Source: a bacterium (GTDB taxonomy: Bacteria > CSSED10-310 > JAJRTK01). From it: a stretch of 11,880 nt of DNA. The stretch is taken from assembly GCA_024278345.1 (NCBI GenBank), contig JAJRTK010000364.1, positions 1 to 11,880 on the forward strand, written 5' to 3'. Below the pieces are notes generated by a model. The model worked only from the letters and a program-made list of their open reading frames with translations, was not told the origin of the DNA and made no database searches. Positions 412 to 11,736 of the stretch are shown here, one piece after another. Positions within the stretch are counted from its first letter, which is position 1. Each line of letters opens with the position of its first letter. The position numbers and the translations under genes were made by a program.

Positions 412-1875
412 ATGGAGTCATCGGTGGCGCGGAGTGCCGTGCGAAGGAGCGAGAAAAACCTGCTAGAGAAGTTCCTGAGCCTCTTTACCGAAGTGGGGCC
501 GGGGGAGGGGCTGAGTGCTCTGCTTCTGATGCTGAACGTCCTGATGCTTCTTGCGGCCTATTACATCATCAAGCCGGTGAGGGAGGCGCTCATCCTCTCC
601 GAGCCCAGTGGCCCGGAGGTGAAATCCTATCTTTCGGCGGTCATGGCCGTTTTACTGGTCTTGCTCGTTCCCGCCTACGCGAAATTGGTCAACCGATTCA
701 TCCGGTCCCGGCTCATTGCGGTGGTGACGCTTTTCTTCATGGCCTGCCTGGTAGGGTTTTGGGGGATGGACAAGCTGGGTGTTCCAAGGCTCGGCTACCC
801 GTTCTTCGTTTGGGTGGGCATCTTCAATCTGATGGTCATCAACCAGTTTTGGTCCTTCGCCAATGATGTTTACAGCTCGGAAGCGGGAAAACGCTTGTTT
901 CCTCTCATCGCTTTCGGCGCTTCATCGGGAGCCGTGGTTGGGCCGTGGGTAACGGAGTTGCTCCTAGAGGTGATGAGCACTTTTGAGCTTCTTCTGGTTT
1001 GCGCCTCGGTCCTGGGAGCCTGTATCCTCATCACCCAGTGGGTGGCGGGCCGGGAGTTTGGCGCGGAGGCTCCAGACTCCTCGGGACCCATAGAAGAGAG
1101 GAAGGCGGACAAGTCGCCGGAGCGGTTTTTTGATAGCTTCGAGCTTCTTTTTCGGCACCGCTATTTAGGGGCGATTGCCGTGTTGGTGCTGTTGCTCAAT
1201 TTTGTGAACACCACCGGAGAATACGTCCTTGGCAGTGTCGTTTCCCAGGATGCCAAGGCCCGGGCTGCCCAGATGGTGGAAGAGACGAGGAGTGAGGGCG
1301 CCCGACTGGCGATGGAGAGCGAGATCGGCGCTCCCACCGATGAAGAGCTACAGAAAGAGTACCAGAGCAAGATCATTGGCCGTTTTTACAGCAAGTTCTT
1401 TTGGTGGGTGAACTTGATAGGCGCTCTGTTTCAACTTTTTCTGGTTTCGCGCTTGGTGAAGATTGGCGGCATGTATGGCGCGCTAATCATGTTGCCGATC
1501 ATTGCCTTTGGGACCTATGCAATCGTTGTTGCGGCGCCGCTCTTGGCATACGTGAGAATTGGAAAGATCCTGGAGAACGCCACGGACTATTCGGTGAACA
1601 ACACGGCTCGGCACATGCTACTTCTGCCCACTTCCACGGAGATCAAATACAAAGCGAAGCAGGCCATCGACACCTTCATGCAGAGGGCTGGCGATCTGTT
1701 TTCGGGCCTGTTGGTTCTGGTGTGCGTCCAGAATCTTGGGATGGGAATAGGACAGATTGCTCTGGTGAATCTCGTGGTGATCATCGGTTGGGTATTCTTG
1801 GCCTGGCGGATTGCCGGAAAGTTTCACTGTATCGAGGCGGGAGATTGCCCGGAGATCGCCGGAGAATTGAATTGA
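412..1875 (+). CDS. NTT/TLC-family (ATP/ADP translocase-like) MFS membrane carrier
   Basis: This is a 487-residue polytopic inner-membrane protein with about 11-12 hydrophobic segments (roughly residues 34-53, 73-90, 101-118, 130-148, 163-180, 191-211, 251-267, 328-346, 353-383, 430-447, 449-468). Family marks are KPVREALIL (54-62) after the first membrane helix and the block ENATDYSVNNTARHMLLLP (388-406) followed by KYKAKQAID. Both are typical of proteins annotated as Npt1/Npt2-like nucleotide transporters. Family members with proven function exchange ATP for ADP across membranes, but free-living bacterial homologues are mostly untested, so the substrate is an inference. Two charged soluble stretches (213-250 and 275-325) split the bundle. 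The start is ATG at 412, with GGAG at 402-405 six bases upstream. An in-frame TTG at 400 has poorer spacing. It is the first gene of a co-directional trio. Confidence 0.9.
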   Translation: MESSVARSAVRRSEKNLLEKFLSLFTEVGPGEGLSALLLMLNVLMLLAAYYIIKPVREALILSEPSGPEVKSYLSAVMAVLLVLLVPAYAKLVNRFIRSRLIAVVTLFFMACLVGFWGMDKLGVPRLGYPFFVWVGIFNLMVINQFWSFANDVYSSEAGKRLFPLIAFGASSGAVVGPWVTELLLEVMSTFELLLVCASVLGACILITQWVAGREFGAEAPDSSGPIEERKADKSPERFFDSFELLFRHRYLGAIAVLVLLLNFVNTTGEYVLGSVVSQDAKARAAQMVEETRSEGARLAMESEIGAPTDEELQKEYQSKIIGRFYSKFFWWVNLIGALFQLFLVSRLVKIGGMYGALIMLPIIAFGTYAIVVAAPLLAYVRIGKILENATDYSVNNTARHMLLLPTSTEIKYKAKQAIDTFMQRAGDLFSGLLVLVCVQNLGMGIGQIALVNLVVIIGWVFLAWRIAGKFHCIEAGDCPEIAGELN

Positions 1876-2033
1876 GTGGAACTGTCATGAGCGCCATGGC
1901 CCAGCGGGAATGCCGGAGCCGTTTGGACCGCCCGAAAAAGGCGACTGGCGCGTGGCGGCTGCCGCGCGACGGGAGCGGACACAACAAAAAAACAGGAAAA
2001 ATTTCCACGGATAGGCGGTTCCGTGGGCTCAAA
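1876..2033 (+). other. Gap between carrier and barrel genes with a stem-loop and an AT-rich palindrome
   Basis: GCGC (1948-1951) pairs with GCGC (1964-1967), continued by GGC (1954-1956) with GCC (1961-1963). Further on, GGAAA (1995-1999) and TTTCC (2002-2006) form an AT-rich palindrome after an A-run. Either could mark an internal control point or promoter for the barrel gene, but no convincing -35/-10 pair is visible. If translation really starts at 1887, most of this stretch is coding. Confidence 0.25.
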
Positions 2034-3374
2034 ATGGCTGAATCCAATCTTGGATGTCATGCGCTTCTTCGGTTTGGGCGAGGTTTTGCGGCCTCGGCCT
2101 TGCTGTTTCTGTCGATTGTCTGCCTATTCGTACCAGCCTTTGCCGATGATGGAGCTGGGGGGGCTTTGGCGACGGATACCGTGGAAACGGCCTTGCCTGC
2201 GACCGCCGCAGCCGAAAAGTTGCGGGGCCGTGTGGAAAAGGGGCGGGAGGCCAGACCCGCTTTGGTGATTCCAAGGATACTCTTGTATTTGCCCCGAATG
2301 GTCGTAAAAGCTTTTGTTGTGTGGCCTTTGGAGAAACTTGCTTATTTCGTGGGAAGGCTTCAGGGCGCCGCGAAACTACAGTTTTATGTGGCGAGCTTTG
2401 TTCGGACGGGATTTCGGCCGAGCATTGGCGTGGGCGTCGTGGGAGGCTCGCTTTTTGGAGATCGGAAAGGGCTTTCGGCGTTGGCGAGTTATGGTGGGCG
2501 CAACTTCCAATTCTACGAGCTCAAATATGCCTGGAAACTGGATCCCTCGTGGAAACTGGAGCTGGCTGGCCGCTACCGGCGGAGGGGCGATATGCAGTTT
2601 CACGGTATCGGCCAGGTGCCCTGGAATGAGAGCCGTTATTTCTACCAGGAGTCCCGTGGCGAGGCTTCTTTGGAAAAGAAGTTCTCCAAGGCCGTGAAAC
2701 TGGAGTTCACCTCGGGTTGGCGGCGAGTCGGTACTGGGGATTCTTCCGATCTCGGGGACGATGATCGGACGCTGTCGGAGATCTTCAATTCCGACGCCCT
2801 GGAGGGGTTTGGAAGAGAGCAGAACTTCGTGAGAACCGCGCTTGCGGCGACGTTTCGCTTGCGCTCGGAGAAGATATGGAAGCCGGGCTTGGAAGTCGTA
2901 GCCAGGGGCGAGAGCTGGTTGGCGGTCGGTGGTGAGGGAGGTTCGGCCGTGGTGGCTGGACTGGAAGCCGCCGGCTGGTTCCCCTTGTTTCGGGATCGGG
3001 TCGTGGCGTTCCGACTGTTGGGGCGCGGAGCGGGTCAGTTGGGGAGCGACGGTCTTCCCTTCTACTTGTTGCCCCGTGCAGGCCGTGGTGGCGAGCTTCG
3101 AGGTTATCCCAGCGGTCGTTTCCGGGATCGGCTGTTTGCTTTGGCGAGCACGGAATACCGGTGGCCTGTATGGAAGGGGGCGGAGGGGGTTCTTTTCTTC
3201 GACGTGGGACGCGTTTTCTCCGCTTTCCAGCGCTTGACCCTGTCGGGGTGGAACTGGGGGACTGGAGGCGGTCTCCGGATCCGGACGGAGCGAAAGTTGC
3301 TGTTCAGCATTCAGTTTGCCTATAGCCCGGAAGGCACGGAGTTGTTGATCTTGTCCGGGTCCAACCTGTTCTAG
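2034..3374 (+). CDS. POTRA-less Omp85/D15-like outer-membrane beta-barrel protein
   Basis: The product has 446 residues. The N-terminus is a signal peptide (hydrophobic core about 19-36, likely cut after AFA at 37). A linker and an amphipathic stretch (about 75-110) follow, then alternating beta strands to the C-terminal Phe. Near the C-terminus LPRAGRGGELRGYPSGRFRD (347-366), with the RGY motif at 356-358, followed by ALASTEYRWPVW, matches the bacterial surface antigen (D15/BamA-TamA) barrel. There is no room for POTRA domains, so it is unlikely to be a full BamA or TamA. A substrate or partner cannot be read from sequence. The start is chosen at ATG 2034 because the signal peptide begins there. 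An in-frame ATG at 1887 would add 49 basic, non-conserved-looking residues in front of it. The ribosome binding site at 2034 is weak. The stop lies 35 nt before the next gene. Confidence 0.88.
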   Translation: MAESNLGCHALLRFGRGFAASALLFLSIVCLFVPAFADDGAGGALATDTVETALPATAAAEKLRGRVEKGREARPALVIPRILLYLPRMVVKAFVVWPLEKLAYFVGRLQGAAKLQFYVASFVRTGFRPSIGVGVVGGSLFGDRKGLSALASYGGRNFQFYELKYAWKLDPSWKLELAGRYRRRGDMQFHGIGQVPWNESRYFYQESRGEASLEKKFSKAVKLEFTSGWRRVGTGDSSDLGDDDRTLSEIFNSDALEGFGREQNFVRTALAATFRLRSEKIWKPGLEVVARGESWLAVGGEGGSAVVAGLEAAGWFPLFRDRVVAFRLLGRGAGQLGSDGLPFYLLPRAGRGGELRGYPSGRFRDRLFALASTEYRWPVWKGAEGVLFFDVGRVFSAFQRLTLSGWNWGTGGGLRIRTERKLLFSIQFAYSPEGTELLILSGSNLF

Positions 3375-3409
3375 GGGATGGACCTCTTTTGCGTGGGAGC
3401 AAAGAGACG

Positions 3410-5110
3410 ATGGGATGGCGCGGCGTGGCAGCTTGGATCGGATTCGTGGCGTGGCTGGGGTTTGCTGTGGGAGCTGGTGGAGCGTTGGCTGCCGGTGGGA
3501 AGGACCTTCGAAGGTTTGCATCTAGGCCCACCGTCTGGCGCCTCATCGACCGCCACGTGGCCAAAAGGCCAGCGAAAACCAAGGAAAACGTCCTTGGGGA
3601 TGGTTTTCGGGCTCAGTTCACGCGACGGATGGACAATGGGTTGGCGCTCCGCGGGGAGACGCTTGCCCGGGACATCAACAGTCTAGGGGAGATCCCGGAT
3701 TCAGCCTGGTACCAGAACCGGATAGGCAGGGCGGAGATCAGTGCGGAGGACCTGTTTTGGGGGCCTTGCGACAAGGATGGCTCCATGGGGCCGGAGCCGG
3801 GGAGCAGGCTTGCGGTGTTTGCCGCCAAGACCGTGGGAGCGAATCCAGGGTTTTTGGCTCGGGATCAGCGGGGAGGGCGCTACCTTGTAAAGTTCGATCC
3901 ACCCCACGCCCCGGAGATGCAGACCGGGGCGGATTTGGTGGGAAACAGGCTCTTTTGGGCCCTTGGATACCACGTGCCCTGCGATTCGATCTTTGTTTTC
4001 CGGCGGGAGGACCTCGTCATCGATCCTGAAACTGAGGTCCTCGATGCCCTGACGAAGAAGAAACGCCCCATGGAGGCGCGGGATCTCGATGCGATCCTGG
4101 CCAAGGTAGCACGCCGGGATGACGGCTCCTACCGGTGCCAGCTCAGTCGTTTCGTCCCGGGAATTCCCGTGGGCCCAGTGGCGCAGAGCGGCGTACGCGG
4201 GGACGATCCCAACGACCGAATTCCCCACGAAGAGCGGCGGTCGTTTCGGGGGCTCCGGGTCTTCGCAGCCTGGGTCAAGCACACCGATCTCAAGCTGGGC
4301 AATACACTGTCAGCCTACGTGACCGAGGGGGATCGATCATTCTTGCGCCACTACCTGGTGGATTTCGGGGAGATCTTCGCCGGGCAGGCGGGAGAACAGG
4401 GTTACATGCGAGACGGATACCAGTACAACATCGATCCCGGGGCGATTCTTCGCTCTTTTCTGCTGTTGGGGCTCTGGGTAGAGCCATGGGAGCGGATCGA
4501 GGATTCGGGTTATACTGCTATTGGACCCTTCGAGAGCAAGAACTTTAGGTTCTATGGCTGGAAACCTCTTCTTCCCAATCGCTTCATGAACCGGATGAAC
4601 GATCTCGATGCTTTTTGGGCTCTCCGAAAGTTGGCCGCACTTTCGGAGGAACACCTGAAAGCTGCCGTAAAAGCGGGGCAATATAGCGATCCCGGAGCCG
4701 CGGACTACCTTTTGGAGGTCCTTTTGGAACGCCGCCAGATCATCGCCAGGGAAGTCCTTCCTCGGGTCAACCCGGTTTACGGGTTTAGAGTGGACAATGG
4801 AGTGCGGTTGAGCTTTCGCGATCTCGCCCTGGACCTTGGCCACCTGGAGCCGGTGGAAAGAACCTGGCGGGTGGAGTCTTGCTTCATCGGTCGGCACCGG
4901 TCGTGTCCCGGGAAGGTTCAGCTCCTTTCAAGACCGGTCATGGACTTAGAGACTCCTGCCGCGGAAGAGCAATTGGTGGTGCGGCTCCAGGCGCTATCCC
5001 ACGGCCGAGCCCGGGGCCAGGCCGTCCATCTCCACCTGGATCGGTTGCCGGGCCGCGAGAGAATCTCCATCGTGGGTATTGATCGCTGGCGGACTGGACA
5101 GGTGAAGTGA
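3410..5110 (+). CDS. Secreted protein of a conserved uncharacterised family with protein-kinase-like motifs
   Basis: The 566-residue product has a Sec signal peptide (core about 7-25, likely cut after ALA at 25-27, no lipobox Cys), so it is probably periplasmic. Blocks I recognise from hypothetical proteins of Acidobacteria and Deltaproteobacteria are LGEIPDSAWYQNR (92-104), DDPNDRIPHEERRSFRGLR (265-283) and FESKNFRFYGWKPLLPN (374-390). Kinase-like signatures occur in the right order: RYLVKFD with candidate Lys161, then VKHTDLKLGNTL with Asp293 and Asn298 in exact HxDLKxxN spacing, then HYLVDFGEIF with DFG at 318-320. No clear glycine-rich loop or alpha-C Glu can be assigned. The C-terminal 450-566 looks like a separate domain. 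The start is ATG 3410 with GGGAG ten bases upstream. A TTG at 3389 is less likely. Kinase activity is inferred, and a HipA- or CotH-like phosphotransfer fold is the main alternative. Confidence 0.9.
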   Translation: MGWRGVAAWIGFVAWLGFAVGAGGALAAGGKDLRRFASRPTVWRLIDRHVAKRPAKTKENVLGDGFRAQFTRRMDNGLALRGETLARDINSLGEIPDSAWYQNRIGRAEISAEDLFWGPCDKDGSMGPEPGSRLAVFAAKTVGANPGFLARDQRGGRYLVKFDPPHAPEMQTGADLVGNRLFWALGYHVPCDSIFVFRREDLVIDPETEVLDALTKKKRPMEARDLDAILAKVARRDDGSYRCQLSRFVPGIPVGPVAQSGVRGDDPNDRIPHEERRSFRGLRVFAAWVKHTDLKLGNTLSAYVTEGDRSFLRHYLVDFGEIFAGQAGEQGYMRDGYQYNIDPGAILRSFLLLGLWVEPWERIEDSGYTAIGPFESKNFRFYGWKPLLPNRFMNRMNDLDAFWALRKLAALSEEHLKAAVKAGQYSDPGAADYLLEVLLERRQIIAREVLPRVNPVYGFRVDNGVRLSFRDLALDLGHLEPVERTWRVESCFIGRHRSCPGKVQLLSRPVMDLETPAAEEQLVVRLQALSHGRARGQAVHLHLDRLPGRERISIVGIDRWRTGQVK

Positions 5111-5426: not shown

Positions 5427-6626
5427 TCAAAGACCGTCGAATTCCCGGGGATATCCGTAGGTGTCGTAGACCAGGCTCCAGCGCTGGCGGACGAAATCAA
5501 GAGTCTCGGGATCGATTTCCAGCGGGTTGCGGCGGTAGCCCCGGAGACCTTCCAAGTAATGGCCGATGGCCTTGCTGTACTGCTCCCAGTCGGGAAGGGC
5601 GAACTGGGAGTAGAGTTTTTCCATGATCTCGAGCTCCTGGCCGCAAAACTCGTCATACCGGATCTCGAACAAATTCTCTTTGGGAATCAGGGCGCGATCT
5701 TCGATAAGACGACGGAAGAGGAGTTCTCCGGCTACGGCTGTATGCTCTTTCCGAAGTTCCAGAAAGGTCTTTCTAGGGCGCTGGAGGAAGTTCTCCCAAT
5801 CGACTTTCCGGCGCATGTGGAGCATGGAAACAAAGACTCGCGCCGGGTGGCGATGGATATGGACGAACTTGGCATCGGGAAAGAGCTCTAGGAGCAGGGA
5901 GATGCGGGCGCTGTGAAGACAGCTCTTGAGAACGACCCGCTTGCCGCCGGTGGAAAGCATGATCTTCTTCACAACCAGCAGGAGCGCTTCTTTCCAGCGC
6001 TGCACCTCGTGTTGGGACACACCCTGGAAATCGATGTACTTTTTGTATTCCTCGGCATCATCGGGAAACATGACGCCGGTGTAGAAGGAGAGCCCTTCGG
6101 TGAGTTTCATCAGGGCTATTTCGTCTTCGGCCGCTTCGTGCCAACCGTGCTTGACAGCATCGTAGCTTCTTGTTGACGGAAGAGCTCCGGCCAGGAGCCT
6201 AGGGCCCATGCGCCCGGTCGTCAGGAAAATCGTGGGAAAAACGGCTTGATAGACCGTGGAGAAGGTATGGTTCGGGTCGCGGCCAAGGACGTTGTGTAGG
6301 TGTGTGGTTCCACTCCTCCAATGGCCAAGGACAAAAATGGGCGTCGGATCGATTTTTTGATCCTTGATGCGCGTGGAGAAAATGAGGCGCTCCAGAAGGC
6401 CGAGGGCGGAGATCGGGAGAGAATAGGCCAGAATCCGCGCGGCCCGGAGAAGATAAGGAGAATGCACATTCCAGCCCCGCCGCCTGAGAATGCGCAGCCA
6501 CGGAATGACGTGGATTCCGGTCACAAGCTGGTCCGCGGATTTCCGGTTCTCGAGCTTTTGGATTCGGGCCGCCAGGTCTGCACTCATTTTTTTTGCCGGC
6601 TGTGAGAGGTTGTGATTGGCGCACAT
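5427..6626 (-). CDS. PAPS-dependent sulfotransferase family protein
   Basis: The 399-residue product is predicted to transfer a sulfuryl group from 3'-phosphoadenosine-5'-phosphosulfate to an unidentified acceptor. The P-loop-like 5'-phosphosulfate loop is FVLGHWRSGTTHLHNVL (98-114). The 3'-phosphate-binding segment is FVHIHRHPARVFVSML (254-269), with Arg259 and Ser267 as likely contacts. KSCLHSARISLL (234-245) lies between them. The length suits the bacterial Sulfotransfer_3-type group. A hydrophobic stretch near 63-84 may attach it to the membrane. The start is uncertain. ATG at 6626 gives a 13-residue N-terminal extension, while in-frame ATG at 6587 follows an A-run. Neither has a good ribosome binding site. 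It is divergent from the PhnD-like gene and convergent with the kinase-like gene, so it is probably transcribed alone. No acceptor biosynthesis genes are adjacent. Confidence 0.92.
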   Translation of the reverse strand: MCANHNLSQPAKKMSADLAARIQKLENRKSADQLVTGIHVIPWLRILRRRGWNVHSPYLLRAARILAYSLPISALGLLERLIFSTRIKDQKIDPTPIFVLGHWRSGTTHLHNVLGRDPNHTFSTVYQAVFPTIFLTTGRMGPRLLAGALPSTRSYDAVKHGWHEAAEDEIALMKLTEGLSFYTGVMFPDDAEEYKKYIDFQGVSQHEVQRWKEALLLVVKKIMLSTGGKRVVLKSCLHSARISLLLELFPDAKFVHIHRHPARVFVSMLHMRRKVDWENFLQRPRKTFLELRKEHTAVAGELLFRRLIEDRALIPKENLFEIRYDEFCGQELEIMEKLYSQFALPDWEQYSKAIGHYLEGLRGYRRNPLEIDPETLDFVRQRWSLVYDTYGYPREFDGL

Positions 6627-6726
6627 TTGTAGAATGATTCCCGTCGATTCGCAATTCGCTCACGTCCGGTTGAAGATCGTTGGACGTCTTTGGTTCTTGG
6701 ACCGTGCGTCACCTGGAGGCAAAACG
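6627..6726. promoter_or_regulatory. Divergent control region between sulfotransferase and PhnD-like genes
   Basis: About 100 bp must hold the start signals of both genes. An inverted repeat ACGTCC (6662-6667) and GGACGT (6682-6687) with 14 bases between could be an operator. ATTCGC is directly repeated nearby (about 6646-6658). TGGAGG at 6714-6719 is a strong ribosome binding site seven bases before ATG 6727 and fixes that start. I cannot assign convincing -35/-10 or sigma54 elements on either strand. Confidence 0.4.
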
Positions 6727-7602
6727 ATGTTGGGACGGGTGGTGGTCATACTTGTTTTTCTGGTGGGCGAGTTTGCTCTTGCGTATCCGAGCGAGCTGAC
6801 CATCGGGTTGGTTCCCGAGCAGAACGTCTTCGAGCAGCTCAAGAGATACAAACCTCTTGGCGCTTACCTCGGGGTACGGATGGACTGTGATGTGGAGTTT
6901 GTCATTTTTTCAGGTTATTCTACCGTGTTAAAGGCGATTCGCGATGGCACGGTTGATGGTGCGTTCCTGGGGAGCTTTGCCACGGCGCTCGCCATCGAGA
7001 AACTGGGGGTGGAACCTCTTGCGCGGCCAGTATGGCTTGATGGATCTGCCAGTTATCGGGGCTTGATCCTCGTGCGAAAGGAAGCTGGGATTCATAGCGT
7101 CAAGCAAATGAAGGGACGGAGGCTGGTTTTCGTCGATTCCATGACGTTTGGCGGCTATATCTTTCCCCTTGCTTATCTGCGCCGGCATGGAGTGGAGGAT
7201 CCTGAAACCTATTTTCAGAGCAGCTATTTCGCTGGCAGTCACGACGCGGCGATACAGAGCTTGTTGGATGGCAAGGCAGAGGTTGGCTGTTCAAAGAATA
7301 CGATTTTTTTCCGCCAGGCAAAAGAAAAACCGGAGATCATGAAAAGCCTGGAGGTGCTGGCGGAGTCGCCTGAAGTACCTTCCAATGCCCTTGCGGTGAG
7401 AAAGGATCTGCCTGACAGCCTCAGATCGGCCATTCGAGCAACGCTCATGGAGATGGAGAATCGCGCTGCAGGCCGAAAAGTGCTCAGCGAGTTTGGAGCG
7501 CTTCGGTTCATGGCCACCACAAAGGGGGATTACTCGCTGGTAAAGATAATCGCTACGCAGGCTGGAATCGACCTGGATCGCTACAAGCCTTCTGGCTGGT
7601 GA
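6727..7602 (+). CDS. PhnD-like periplasmic substrate-binding protein
   Basis: The product has 291 residues with a signal peptide (core 5-17, likely cut after ALA at 19). The mature protein starts with ELTIGLVPEQN and shows the type-II periplasmic-binding fold of the phosphate/phosphite/phosphonate (PhnD) family. Family marks are GTVDGAFLGSFATAL (74-88), the MKGRRLVFVDSMTFGGYIFP segment (128-147), and FAGSHDAAIQSLLDGKAEVG (168-187). The ligand cannot be read from sequence. No permease or ATPase gene is nearby, and the next gene is a membrane histidine kinase 117 nt downstream on the same strand. By analogy with the PhnD-like sensory domain of the TtrS tetrathionate kinase, it probably delivers ligand information to that kinase. 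The usual Asp-rich VDAG stretch reads VGCSKN (186-191), putting a Cys near the cleft. Start choice rests on TGGAGG seven bases upstream. Confidence 0.88.
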   Translation: MLGRVVVILVFLVGEFALAYPSELTIGLVPEQNVFEQLKRYKPLGAYLGVRMDCDVEFVIFSGYSTVLKAIRDGTVDGAFLGSFATALAIEKLGVEPLARPVWLDGSASYRGLILVRKEAGIHSVKQMKGRRLVFVDSMTFGGYIFPLAYLRRHGVEDPETYFQSSYFAGSHDAAIQSLLDGKAEVGCSKNTIFFRQAKEKPEIMKSLEVLAESPEVPSNALAVRKDLPDSLRSAIRATLMEMENRAAGRKVLSEFGALRFMATTKGDYSLVKIIATQAGIDLDRYKPSGW

Positions 7603-7614
7603 GAACCGGGGCGT

Positions 7615-7659
7615 AAATCCAATTTCGGGGGGGAGCGCCCAATTGCGTTGAGCGGATTT
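7615..7659 (+). promoter_or_regulatory. Nested stem-loop between PhnD-like and kinase genes
   Basis: Outer arms AAATC (7615-7619) and GATTT (7655-7659) enclose CAATT (7620-7624) with AATTG (7641-7645), which in turn enclose a GGG/CCC pairing. It may be an mRNA processing or stabilising hairpin that sets different levels for the secreted binding protein and the kinase. There is no T-run. Confidence 0.35.
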
Positions 7660-7719
7660 CTCCGAAACCAGAACGGCGATGCTCGTGGCGTCGTCGCAAA
7701 CTTGTTTTTGTGGGGGATA

Positions 7720-10173
7720 ATGAGACAGAAAATCCTCTTGTCATTGCTGCTTTTATTCGTGGTGTTCTTCATGGGCACCATGTTGGCGATGATCTATCTG
7801 CGGGAGACCACACACCAGCTCTCCGAGCTCGTCAAGGCGCACGAAATTGACGAATTTCAGCGGTCCCTGGCCAAGGGCATTCAACGCGTGCAGTCCGATC
7901 TCCAAGCCGTGGCCGGCACGAGATCTGACGGGCTCGGCTCTATTGTCGAAAGCGTGTCGGAACTCGAAAAACGAGCAGAATCCTGCGGCGGCTGTCATCA
8001 TGCCGCCAATGTTGCCAAGGAGTTCGACCGACTTCGAGAGCTTGTGGGAAACTACGAAGCAGCACTGAGCCACTCCATCACGGCAACCGGAGATCCCCGA
8101 AGGCTCCAGGCCCTGAAAGATGAAGCAACGCGATCGGGAGAGAGCATTCTTCGGTTTACCGAACGGATGAGCTTGAGCGCCTTAGGCAGGATTTCTAAGA
8201 TGACGAAGAAAACCGCAAGGAGTTTTCGGAACGTCGATTATATTTTGGGTGCAACATTGCTTGTGACCGCCCTCATGGGCTTGCTCGCCGCTATTCGGTT
8301 AAGCCGGAGCATCACCCACCCGGTTCAAGATCTTTTGCAGGGCACAAGAGCCATCGCAGCCGGTAACCTGAGCTATAAAATCTCCCATCGGGGGACCTCG
8401 GAGTTTCGAGAGCTGGCCTCCAATTTCAACCGGATGAGCGAGGCCCTCCGCTCGGGCTATCAGGACTTGACCCTGGCCAATGATCGCCTCTACCGGGAGA
8501 ATCTGGAGCGCAGGAAAATCGAGCAGAGACTCCGCCTTGACGAGGCCCGCCTTGAGGCCCTTTTGGATCTTGGGGCCATGACTGATGCCTCGGAGCAACG
8601 GATTGCCGAGTTCGTTTTGGATCATGGGATTCGGCTCACCAACAGTCGTTCCGGCTTTGTTCGCCTGGTGGATGAATCAGGGAGAGTCACTCTTCGCCAT
8701 GCGGCCTCCATCGAACCCGAAACAGGGAATGGCCGGGAGGCTGATTCCGGCGAGCCAGCTCTCAACGAAACCTGGACCTGGAGACGGACCGTTGACGAGA
8801 GAAAACCAGTCCTCATCAATGCCCAGGGTCACTCCCGCCCCGCCGGGACGGATCGGCAAGACAATCCGGGGGGCGCGGGCCGGTCCCAACGGGTTTTGAG
8901 CGTCCCGATCCTCGACCGGGCTTCGGTGGTAGGGGTCGCCGCCGTTGCCGGGAAGGACTCGGAATACGACGAGATGGATCAGCGGCAGTTCGTGCTCCTG
9001 GTTCAGGGAATGTGGCAACATCTCCAGCGTCGGCGGCGGGACGAAGAGCTCTTGAGGATGCAGAAACTCGAATCGCTGGGGATCCTTGCCGGCGGCATAG
9101 CCCATGACTTCAACAACCTGTTGACGGGGATCCTTGGTAATATCTCCCTGGCGTTGGATCGCATCGGGGCCGATGGTGACTTGTCCTCCCTCTTGGCAGC
9201 GGCAAGCCAGGCGACGCGGCGGGCAAAGGGGTTGACCGCCCAGCTCCTGACCTTTTCCAGGGGCGGCGCGCCAGTTCGCGAAACCGTTTCCATGGGAGAT
9301 CTCGTGCGGGAAACCACGACCTTCGTCACTCGTGGTTCAAAGGTCAAATGCCGGTTCCGGGTCCAGGAGGACCTCTTTTTCGTCGAAATCGACGTAGGAC
9401 AGATCGCCCAGGTTCTCAATAACCTCGTCATCAATGCCTGCGATGCCATGCCGGATGGTGGCACGCTGGAGATCGTGTGCAGAAGTGTCACGAGCGCTGA
9501 GGAAACACTTCCCATAGAAGAAGATAAATGCGTGGTGATCTCCATTGCCGACCAGGGGGTGGGGATTAAGCCCGAGCACCTTCAAAAGGTCTTCGAGCCC
9601 TATTTCTCAACAAAAAAGCGCGGCAGCGGCCTGGGACTCTCGGCATCGACTTCCATTGTCCAGGCCCACGGGGGGCATATCAGCGTCGAATCACAACTGG
9701 GCGCGGGGACAATTTTTCACGTCTACCTTCCCGCGTCCTCAAAAGAGCCCGTGGCCACTGATGTTCGCAATGAAGAAAAGGTCACACGAGGCAAAGGTGG
9801 TCGGATTCTCGTGATGGACGACGATGAATTGGTCTTGGAGGTCTGCCAGGGCATCCTTGAATACCTTGGCTATCAAGTGGTGACCGCCACCGACGGTGCA
9901 GAGGCCCTGGAGCGCTACGAGGATGCACGCCAGAAGGGCCGACCCTTCGATGCTGTGGTTTTCGATCTCACCATTCCCGGAGGGATGGGCGGACAGGAAG
10001 CCATCCGACGCCTGAGACTCGTCGATCCATCCATCAAGGCCATTGTCACCAGCGGCTATTCCAGCGATCCAGTCCTGGCGGAGCACGAGAGATATGGGTT
10101 CAATGGTCGCGTGGTGAAACCCTATAACGTCCACGATCTGGGGAGCGCTATGGAGGAACTGCTAGGTGGATAG
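7720..10173 (+). CDS. Hybrid histidine kinase with CxxCH heme-c-type periplasmic sensor, HAMP, GAF and receiver domains
   Basis: The 817-residue inner-membrane sensor has TM1 (about 5-27) and a helical periplasmic region (28-172) with SCGGCHH, giving Cys89, Cys92 and His93 as a covalent heme-c site. TM2 (about 174-193), HAMP (194-247) and a short coiled coil (250-280) follow. The GAF-like domain spans about 281-435, with RVLSVPILDRASVVGVAAVA. HisKA carries the H-box AHDFNN with phospho-accepting His462. HATPase_c has N-box NLVINACDA, DQGVGIKP, FEPYFSTKKRGSGLGL and GAGTIFHVYLP. The C-terminal receiver (695-815) has acidic Asp700-702, phospho-acceptor Asp749, Ser/Thr near 777-778 and Lys800. 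No DNA-binding output domain or response regulator gene is in the window, so output probably goes through phosphotransfer to a distant partner. ATG 7720 is chosen because TM1 starts there, although the G-run before it is close. In-frame TTG 7648 would add 24 residues. It is probably co-transcribed with the PhnD-like gene. Confidence 0.93.
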   Translation: MRQKILLSLLLLFVVFFMGTMLAMIYLRETTHQLSELVKAHEIDEFQRSLAKGIQRVQSDLQAVAGTRSDGLGSIVESVSELEKRAESCGGCHHAANVAKEFDRLRELVGNYEAALSHSITATGDPRRLQALKDEATRSGESILRFTERMSLSALGRISKMTKKTARSFRNVDYILGATLLVTALMGLLAAIRLSRSITHPVQDLLQGTRAIAAGNLSYKISHRGTSEFRELASNFNRMSEALRSGYQDLTLANDRLYRENLERRKIEQRLRLDEARLEALLDLGAMTDASEQRIAEFVLDHGIRLTNSRSGFVRLVDESGRVTLRHAASIEPETGNGREADSGEPALNETWTWRRTVDERKPVLINAQGHSRPAGTDRQDNPGGAGRSQRVLSVPILDRASVVGVAAVAGKDSEYDEMDQRQFVLLVQGMWQHLQRRRRDEELLRMQKLESLGILAGGIAHDFNNLLTGILGNISLALDRIGADGDLSSLLAAASQATRRAKGLTAQLLTFSRGGAPVRETVSMGDLVRETTTFVTRGSKVKCRFRVQEDLFFVEIDVGQIAQVLNNLVINACDAMPDGGTLEIVCRSVTSAEETLPIEEDKCVVISIADQGVGIKPEHLQKVFEPYFSTKKRGSGLGLSASTSIVQAHGGHISVESQLGAGTIFHVYLPASSKEPVATDVRNEEKVTRGKGGRILVMDDDELVLEVCQGILEYLGYQVVTATDGAEALERYEDARQKGRPFDAVVFDLTIPGGMGGQEAIRRLRLVDPSIKAIVTSGYSSDPVLAEHERYGFNGRVVKPYNVHDLGSAMEELLGG

Positions 10174-10400: not shown

Positions 10401-10420
10401 TCAACTCCCTTCAACTCCCT
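10401..10420 (-). repeat. 10-bp tandem duplication over the ATP-grasp stop codon
   Basis: TCAACTCCCT occurs twice in immediate succession (10401-10410 and 10411-10420). On the coding strand AGGGAGTTGA is doubled, giving the C-terminal codons GVEGS and the TGA. With one copy, the frame would continue for 16 further residues after GVE to a TAG ending near 10349. Confidence 0.9.
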
Positions 10421-11570
10421 GGATGAAGTCCGTGGCCCGGAAGATTTCTTCTTGTTCCGCTGCCCGGAGAACGTAGGCGTAATCGCCCATGGCCCTGCTA
10501 AAAACCGGCTCGACCCGATGGTGAAGGAGGATCGAATCCCCAAATTCCTCAAGGATTTCCTCGTGGCAGTGGAGATACGGGTTCTTTTCCTTGCGACTGA
10601 TATAGCAACAGAAGAACTTCCGCTCGTAGGCGAATCGGCCCGGTTTTCCGGCGATGATCCGCGCCCACTGGCGATAGAGATCGATGTCGGCTGAAAAATT
10701 GCACATGTCCAGAGTGGGACCGCCGGGCGGCCGCATATTCGCTTCGATAGCCACGAGATCCCCTGTTTCCCGAGTCCGGAAAAACTCAAAGTGGAAAAAG
10801 ATCTCCCGGCCATCGAACGCCTTCAGCGTCCGTTCGCCAAGAGCCTGGAGATCCGCCGGAATTTCCCGAAGTGACGTATAATAGACATGCCGGTCGTGGT
10901 TGACCACTTCCATGACGCCATCACTATACACGTGGGAGGTGCAAAAAACGATGCGGCCTTCCCCATCCGAAAGGCCATCGAAACTGTAGATCGTTCCGTC
11001 GATGAACTCCTCCAGCACGTAGTCCACCGCGGGCTTGAGCGCGAAGAAGCTCTTCAGCTCACCGTCGTCGTGGAGCTTGTAAGTTCCGGCGGCGCCCACG
11101 CCTACATCCGGCTTACCGATGACCGGGTATCCCGTTTCTTTGACGATTCCCAGGGCATCTTCCAGATTTTGGACCAGCCCGCCCCGGGCCACGGGAATCC
11201 CCCATTGCCGGTAGATCGCCTTCATTCGGCTCTTCCGCTTGTAATCGCCGATTTTGTCGAAACCCACCCCCGGTATCCCAAATTCGGTTCGCAATCGGGC
11301 CAGGGGCTCCAGCCAGTGTTCATTGTGGGCCTCCAACCGGTCTACGGGGCCAAATTCATCCACAAGCCCCGTCAAGGCACGGCGAAGGTGCGTCAGATCG
11401 TCCATGTCCGCCACCTGACGGTAGCCATCCAGGGAAAGGCGGAGCTCCGGCCTCAGTTGCTCCCACGGTTGATCGGCAATCCCAAGGACTTGGACGCCAA
11501 GCTCCCGAAGCCGAGCACAAAATAGGTAGTAGTTTGGAGGGAAGTGGGGAGAGACAAAGACGACGTTCAT
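10401..11570 (-). CDS. ATP-grasp carboxylate-amine/thiol ligase family protein
   Basis: The 389-residue protein is predicted to be a cytoplasmic ligase that activates a carboxylate as acyl-phosphate with ATP and joins it to a nucleophile. A Rossmann-like pre-ATP domain comes first (MNVVFVSPHFPPNYYLFCAR, 1-20), then a linker with KRKSRMKAIYRQWGIPVA (111-128). The ATP-grasp core has YPVIGKPDVGVGAAGTYKL (148-166, Lys153), the hinge YVLEEFIDG (184-192), Glu262 in FHFEFFRT, and metal-binding Glu276 and Asn278 in AIEANMRPPGGPTLDM. The C-terminal domain (about 300-389) contains FCCYISRKEKNPY. It resembles carbamoyl-phosphate-synthase-L-like and BL00235/CARNS-type ligases, but the substrate is unknown. 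Start ATG 11570 is preferred over upstream ATG 11678 because the Rossmann strand begins there and GTGGAAGAAGA lies upstream. The last codons fall in a 10-bp tandem duplication. No pathway partners are adjacent. Confidence 0.9.
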   Translation of the reverse strand: MNVVFVSPHFPPNYYLFCARLRELGVQVLGIADQPWEQLRPELRLSLDGYRQVADMDDLTHLRRALTGLVDEFGPVDRLEAHNEHWLEPLARLRTEFGIPGVGFDKIGDYKRKSRMKAIYRQWGIPVARGGLVQNLEDALGIVKETGYPVIGKPDVGVGAAGTYKLHDDGELKSFFALKPAVDYVLEEFIDGTIYSFDGLSDGEGRIVFCTSHVYSDGVMEVVNHDRHVYYTSLREIPADLQALGERTLKAFDGREIFFHFEFFRTRETGDLVAIEANMRPPGGPTLDMCNFSADIDLYRQWARIIAGKPGRFAYERKFFCCYISRKEKNPYLHCHEEILEEFGDSILLHHRVEPVFSRAMGDYAYVLRAAEQEEIFRATDFIQGVEGS

Positions 11571-11736
11571 GGGATCTTCTTCCACGTTTATTTGGTGCCG
11601 CCGGGCGCCAGCTTCACCAGTTGCTTGGCGCTGGGAAAAATTCCAACCTCGGCCGGTCACACCGGTTTTCGAGGGCAAAAATCTTGCGGCAGTCTAGCGG
11701 TGGAAAGAATGTCTGGCAAGACGAGAAAGGAAAGCC
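11571..11736 (-). other. Upstream region of the ATP-grasp gene
   Basis: This stretch should hold the ATP-grasp promoter, but I find no convincing -35/-10 pair. A small hairpin CCGGT-cac-ACCGG (11653-11665) lies before TTTT on the plus strand. In-frame reading on the minus strand stays open to 11678, but with non-protein-like composition. Confidence 0.4.

Follow-up and report, generated by a model that had tools for sequence, protein, structure and literature searches.

A conserved pair of a secreted kinase-fold protein and an Omp85-type barrel, linked to a subclade of NTT carriers, suggests a phosphotransfer module of the bacterial envelope

Introduction

The bacterial periplasm is generally taken to be free of ATP, and kinases are unexpected there. 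In the eukaryotic secretory pathway, Fam20 kinases rely on carriers that move nucleotides into the lumen. For carriers of the NTT/TLC family, four charged residues (K155, E245, E385, and K527) are essential in AtNTT1 and conserved in characterized members (PMC4256464, PMC3306366). The NTT carriers of free-living bacteria have no known role (PMC5381601).

Here we analyze a window of 11,880 nucleotides, the whole of contig JAJRTK010000364.1 (assembly GCA_024278345.1), from a bacterium of the lineage CSSED10-310 with few relatives, whose 6.06-Mb draft genome is 88% complete. An initial annotation, made from the sequence alone, had recognized three co-directional genes at positions 412 to 5110, encoding an NTT-like carrier, an outer-membrane barrel, and a secreted kinase-like protein (here, KIN), and had proposed that they form a new envelope phosphorylation system. 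All three genes are indeed present on the plus strand, separated by gaps of about 160 and 35 bases.

Results

Our comparison of sequences and structural models shows that a secreted KIN of predicted kinase fold and a POTRA-less Omp85 barrel form a real and conserved module, and that NTT carriers, one subclade of them in particular (here, NTT-A), are statistically associated with this module. As judged from models and conservation, KIN has an atypical-kinase fold with an intact catalytic set and is inherited with the barrel, often together with an NTT and a periplasmic phosphatase.

The KIN of the window has a signal peptide and the motifs YLVKFDP, HTDLKLGN, and HYLVDFG, as annotated. Searches with its sequence yielded no family in Pfam and NCBIfam and no real family in PDB and PADLOC, and a tblastn search of plasmid sequences gave no match. 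It also falls short of the cutoff of Pfam HipA_2 (PF20613), with no match at E 1, while 5 of a set of 81 KIN homologs (set A2) match that family weakly (best, 5.8e-4). The fold was identified by structure only. The AlphaFold model, built with set A2 as input, has a mean pLDDT of 92.2 and a pTM of 0.92. The best match of residues 120 to 455 among solved structures is CtkA (Z 15.0, 4.3 Å, 234 residues), followed by Fam20C and Hydra Fam20 (Z 13.4 to 13.6) and PI4KII-alpha (Z 12.7); further fold matches are CotH (Z 12.4), HipT (Z 11.8), and HipA (Z 10.1). The top-ranked Foldseek match is the Golgi casein kinase with Mn/ADP (E 2.3e-4), and the C-terminal residues 454 to 545 match FN3 domains over 83 to 91 residues. 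The kinase fold is thus predicted with confidence and is well supported by the model.

Along the chain, K161 lies at the end of a strand (157 to 161), D293 and N298 precede a hairpin (299 to 306/309 to 316), and D318 follows the hairpin directly; in the model, this has the order of a kinase active site. K161, D293, and D318 are conserved in all 81 homologs and N298 in 78. These homologs were gathered in part with the DFG-containing motif: the large set of 80 KIN loci was selected by the motifs DPND..PH and HYL[IV]DFG, which biases the conservation of those residues there. Unbiased conservation was therefore taken from 16 copies found by profile alone, of which 15 keep the catalytic K, D, N, and D. 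In the sole exception, from genome G153 (L090:9130-11091), all four catalytic residues are lost (K161L, D293G, N298F, and D318R), and by its sequence this copy is a pseudokinase; the only NTT match in that genome is an NTT-HEAT protein on a contig separate from KIN. For KIN in general, phosphotransferase activity is likely, judging from the model and the conserved residues.

A second, smaller secreted family of PI3K/HipA-like proteins was seen near KIN (L027:8998-9831, L014:7701-8543, L054:6474-7574, L076:4158-5192, and L116:7841-8812), four of these five listed members having the motif NTDRN.GNLL...IDHTRAF. The L116 member is a distant relative adjoining NTT-HEAT in a genome without KIN.

The annotation of the second gene product as a POTRA-less, D15-like barrel also agrees with our results. 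The protein matches NCBIfam Omp85_fam (NF047779) at 1.7e-11, under the cutoff of that family, and 63 of 69 homologs match Pfam Omp85 (PF01103). Its AlphaFold model (pLDDT 80.7, mostly above 90 in the barrel part) resembles the barrels of TamA (Z 26.2) and BamA (Z about 25.9). Residues 1 to 110 are a signal peptide and low-confidence helices, and no POTRA domain was found by Pfam search of the window protein or in the N terminus of its model.

In the 80 motif-selected loci, a barrel gene lies within 800 bases of KIN on the same strand for 77 of 85 KIN copies; among the eight copies without such a neighbor, four are the second KIN gene of a tandem and two reach the end of a contig. Likewise, all 15 profile-found loci flanked by 5 kb or more on each side have the barrel next to KIN. 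The 80 loci span Acidobacteria, Zixibacteria, KSB1, Latescibacterota, Krumholzibacteriia, Calditrichia, Poribacteria, Gemmatimonadetes, Polyangiaceae, Fodinibius, and others; the pairing is seen across about a dozen phyla. Cultured carriers of the cassette include Edaphobacter aggregans (L038), Fodinibius roseus (L059), and Fodinibius salsisoli (L069). On these gene neighborhoods, a link between KIN and the barrel is near certain.

Three apparent barrel-KIN fusions were set aside. The long open reading frames in L026 and L150 have matches to the KIN domain only and look like read-through in GC-rich DNA, while L149:1236-3968, where a truncated barrel and KIN share one open frame, may be explained by gene fusion, by deletion, or by faulty assembly. 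We therefore make no claim of a fusion.

The carrier of the window matches Pfam TLC (PF03219) with 68.6 bits against a cutoff of 21, which upholds its assignment to the NTT family. It reaches 57.7 bits with the NTP/NDP exchange transporter model TIGR00769 (cutoff of 387.2 not attained) and matches the ADP,ATP carrier structures 9j3n (5.9e-7) and 9j3j (8e-5). It is the only NTT found in its genome. In a tree of 87 NTTs, it belongs to NTT-A, a clade of 15 single-domain carriers that are all linked to KIN. The clade stands apart both from the sampled NTTs of genomes that lack KIN and from the type found in intracellular bacteria.

An NTT gene is found within 8 kb of KIN for 19 of 39 copies with flanks of at least 7 kb, and for 7 of 15 profile-found copies; by our own estimate, from two to three NTT genes in 4 to 5 Mb, about 1% would be expected. 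Among 389 genomes, all at least 90% complete except the window's own, 17 carry KIN (one of them as a fragment), 47 carry PF03219, and 15 carry both (Fisher, 2e-13); a better profile finds an NTT in the one clear KIN genome left over from this count as well. Counted by family, 12 of 14 KIN families have an NTT (P = 4e-10, with an approximate figure for all families). NTT-A, searched by its own profile (A6), is found in 10 of the 389 genomes at 599 to 710 bits, with no other genome above 246 bits. All 10 genomes carry KIN (P = 1e-15), in four cases on a separate contig. Within a single phylum (143 genomes, NTT-A called at 400 bits or more), NTT-A is present in 11 of 14 clear KIN genomes and in 12 of 129 others (P = 4e-8). 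In one same-genus pair, G342 has KIN and NTT-A, G105 has neither, and NTT-HEAT is present in both; the phylum test centered on G342 comprised four genomes only.

Carrier and kinase-like protein therefore co-occur beyond chance by neighborhood, phyletic, and subclade counts. The arrangement recurs in many phyla, which speaks against the alternative, also raised in the initial annotation, that the genes are mere neighbors. A Pfam survey of the neighbors of NTT genes in KIN-less genomes revealed no strongly recurrent family, so the kinase link is not general to all NTTs.

Larger cassettes (L006, L013, L024, and L082) have the order histidine kinase, barrel, KIN, metallophosphoesterase, NTT, NTT-HEAT, cNMP-binding protein, and histidine kinase. 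The phosphoesterase next to KIN is a PF00149 protein with a signal peptide or lipobox, and a PAP2 phosphatase follows KIN in other loci. A metallophosphoesterase is also found near NTT-A in three of the four genomes whose NTT-A and KIN genes lie apart. The presence of phosphatases next to a kinase would fit reversible phosphorylation. As a separate observation, L115 (G189) has an NTT, NTT-HEAT, a cNMP-binding gene, and three histidine-kinase-like genes in cassette order on a contig that ends before any KIN or barrel; KIN may be missing from that assembly.

The features of the three genes are listed in Table 1. An Rfam search of the window gave no match. Downstream, positions 7648 to 10173 encode a hybrid sensor histidine kinase (HAMP-GAF-HisKA-HATPase-REC) with a CGGCH heme-type motif in its sensor region. 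It is directly preceded by a PhnD-like binding protein (6616 to 7602), and the pair resembles two-part sensor systems. The pair is flanked on the minus strand by a Sulfotransfer_3 sulfotransferase and an ATP-grasp ligase, at 5427 to 6626 (-) and 10401 to 11678 (-).

Table 1. Positions of genes, alternative starts, and predicted functional sites in the window
Feature	Position	Strand	Basis
NTT/TLC-family carrier, subclade NTT-A, 487 aa	412..1875	+	PF03219 6.2e-19
Alternative start of carrier gene	TTG 400	+	
POTRA-less Omp85-type outer-membrane barrel, signal peptide, 446 aa	2034..3374	+	NF047779, homologs PF01103, TamA fold match
Possible alternative in-frame start of barrel gene	ATG 1887	+	
KIN, secreted HipA/CtkA/Fam20-fold kinase-like protein, 566 aa	3410..5110	+	Structure model
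Possible alternative start of KIN gene	TTG 3389	+	
FN3-like C-terminal domain of KIN, residues 454-545	4769..5044	+	FN3 domains, Z ~8
Codon of predicted catalytic lysine K161 (YLVKFDP) of KIN	3890..3892	+	Conservation
Predicted catalytic-loop codons D293 to N298 (DLKLGN) of KIN	4286..4303	+	Conservation
DFG codons D318-G320 of KIN	4361..4369	+	Conservation

Discussion

Taken as a whole, the observations are best explained by a conserved extracytoplasmic phosphotransfer module, a reading to which we give about an even chance. In such a module, an inner-membrane NTT would provide the periplasm with a nucleotide as phosphoryl donor and take back the spent nucleotide, and KIN, free or lipid anchored, would phosphorylate a substrate in the envelope. 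The Omp85 barrel could be either (i) the substrate of KIN or (ii) the inserter or exporter of that substrate. In other species, the metallophosphoesterase or PAP2 phosphatase would reverse the reaction, and the histidine-kinase and cNMP-binding genes would regulate it. We have moderate confidence that the carrier supplies nucleotide to a periplasmic kinase, and a supply of ATP is plausible. The fuller proposal is a widespread envelope phosphorylation system, analogous in function to eukaryotic lumenal phosphorylation: ATP or another nucleotide would be exported by an NTT subclade dedicated to this task and would serve a periplasmic kinase of Fam20/HipA fold that acts together with an Omp85 barrel. 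We put this proposal forward tentatively, its chances lying a little below even. Of the envelope phosphorylation system first proposed, the co-occurrence and the kinase fold stand, while the nucleotide cargo is weakened, three of the four essential carrier residues being missing in the NTT subclade of the window.

Several findings weigh against the phosphotransfer module. About half of the KIN copies have no NTT nearby. In one phylum, 12 genomes carry NTT-A but no KIN, and hence NTT-A can have other uses. The pseudokinase of G153 keeps its paired barrel after losing all four catalytic residues, so the pairing in that genome needs no catalysis. The window contig has no cassette phosphatase or phosphoesterase, and its genome has only a distant one elsewhere. 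Finally, aligned at the four essential positions, the NTT-A of the window has K155S, E245G, E385 kept, and K527D (the aspartate being largely conserved in the clade), and because of these three replacements its substrate is unreadable from family membership.

These replacements give weight to a different cargo: the module would be the same, and the carrier would move a non-nucleotide or another charged metabolite (e.g., an NAD-like compound or a phosphorylated intermediate) that is a substrate or product of KIN, the donor of KIN coming from elsewhere. The occurrence of NTT-A without KIN points the same way, as do NTTs outside the characterized clade, which include an NAD transporter and one without detected nucleotide transport (PMC5381601). 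However, NTT-A retains many invariant charges, including a lysine, invariant in the clade, four residues (one helical turn) upstream of the K155 position. Microsporidian NTTs have changes at three of these positions with the right residue within 3 to 4 positions (PMC4256464), so that a missing residue at the precise alignment position is not enough to rule out nucleotide transport by NTT-A. Moreover, a second type (NTT-B), found in seven other loci and in six of them at the same cassette position, keeps K155 and K527 and has E245D. We consider a different cargo rather unlikely.

It is less probable still that the barrel has KIN as its passenger or partner and displays or secretes it at the cell surface, where KIN would act outside the cell, with the NTTs being co-regulated energy or stress genes that have no direct biochemical link to it. 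The pairing of barrel and KIN, pseudokinase included, is far tighter than the NTT link, and other Omp85-linked enzymes such as PlpD are known (PMC4104836). However, NTT-A tracks KIN in 10 of 10 genomes even when the two are genomically apart, which chance neighborhood does not explain, and the strong constraint on the catalytic residues implies a nucleotide at the KIN site. Kinase-fold proteins with other activities exist, such as SidJ and SelO. That KIN catalyzes another reaction (AMPylation or glutamylation), or is a noncatalytic scaffold, in outer-membrane protein assembly with the barrel draws on this precedent, on SidJ in the Foldseek list, and on the one pseudokinase, but it is very improbable given the phosphotransferase pattern in 15 of 16 copies and the recurrent phosphatase neighbors.

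Each part of the proposed phosphotransfer module comes from a known superfamily. What we claim as new is the module itself, a claim that rests on its absence from the literature searched, in which we found no description of an NTT-kinase-barrel system of this kind and nothing relevant on either NTT cryo-EM work or a periplasmic-ATP kinase system. The envelope module thus appears to be undescribed. If the secreted kinase and its dedicated NTT subclade are truly linked, the NTTs of free-living bacteria would gain a function and phosphorylation would have a place in the bacterial envelope, in a form that can be tested with two proteins. The module suggests, without proving, that some bacteria have extracytoplasmic phosphorylation with its own nucleotide supply.

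Several described systems share parts with this module. The NTT-HEAT/cNBD operons (Major et al. 2017, PMC5381601) contain exactly the NTT-HEAT and cNMP-binding genes of the larger cassettes, whereas the accessible part of that paper describes neither a kinase nor a barrel nor a phosphatase as a partner. The cassette barrel resembles the "noNterm" Omp85 proteins (Heinz and Lithgow 2014, PMC4104836), Omp85 barrels without an N-terminal extension; among their relatives are barrels with a PF00149 domain, a domain also present in the separate phosphoesterase of the cassette. The accessible part of that paper reports no kinase partner, and its main text lacks the word "kinase." With NTT/TLC transporters such as AtNTT1 and the bacterial ADP,ATP carrier protein 1, the window carrier shares PF03219 and the E385 position, but it falls in a separate clade, has K155, E245, and K527 replaced, and adjoins a secreted kinase gene, whereas the known carriers belong to intracellular parasites or plastids. 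HipA, CtkA, HipT, and bacterial CotH are among the best fold matches of KIN, CtkA foremost, and a few KIN members weakly match HipA_2; however, the toxins HipA and HipT work in the cytosol, and CotH has the spore coat as its target. We know of no kinase of these groups linked to a carrier and an outer-membrane barrel. Fam20 and the Golgi casein kinase are likewise secreted, extracytosolic proteins of kinase-like fold (Z about 13) that need nucleotide carried over a membrane. KIN differs from them in being bacterial, with about 10% identity, an extra FN3-like domain, and an Omp85 barrel as partner, but by analogy we infer that the proposed module may work as the Fam20 kinases of the secretory pathway do.

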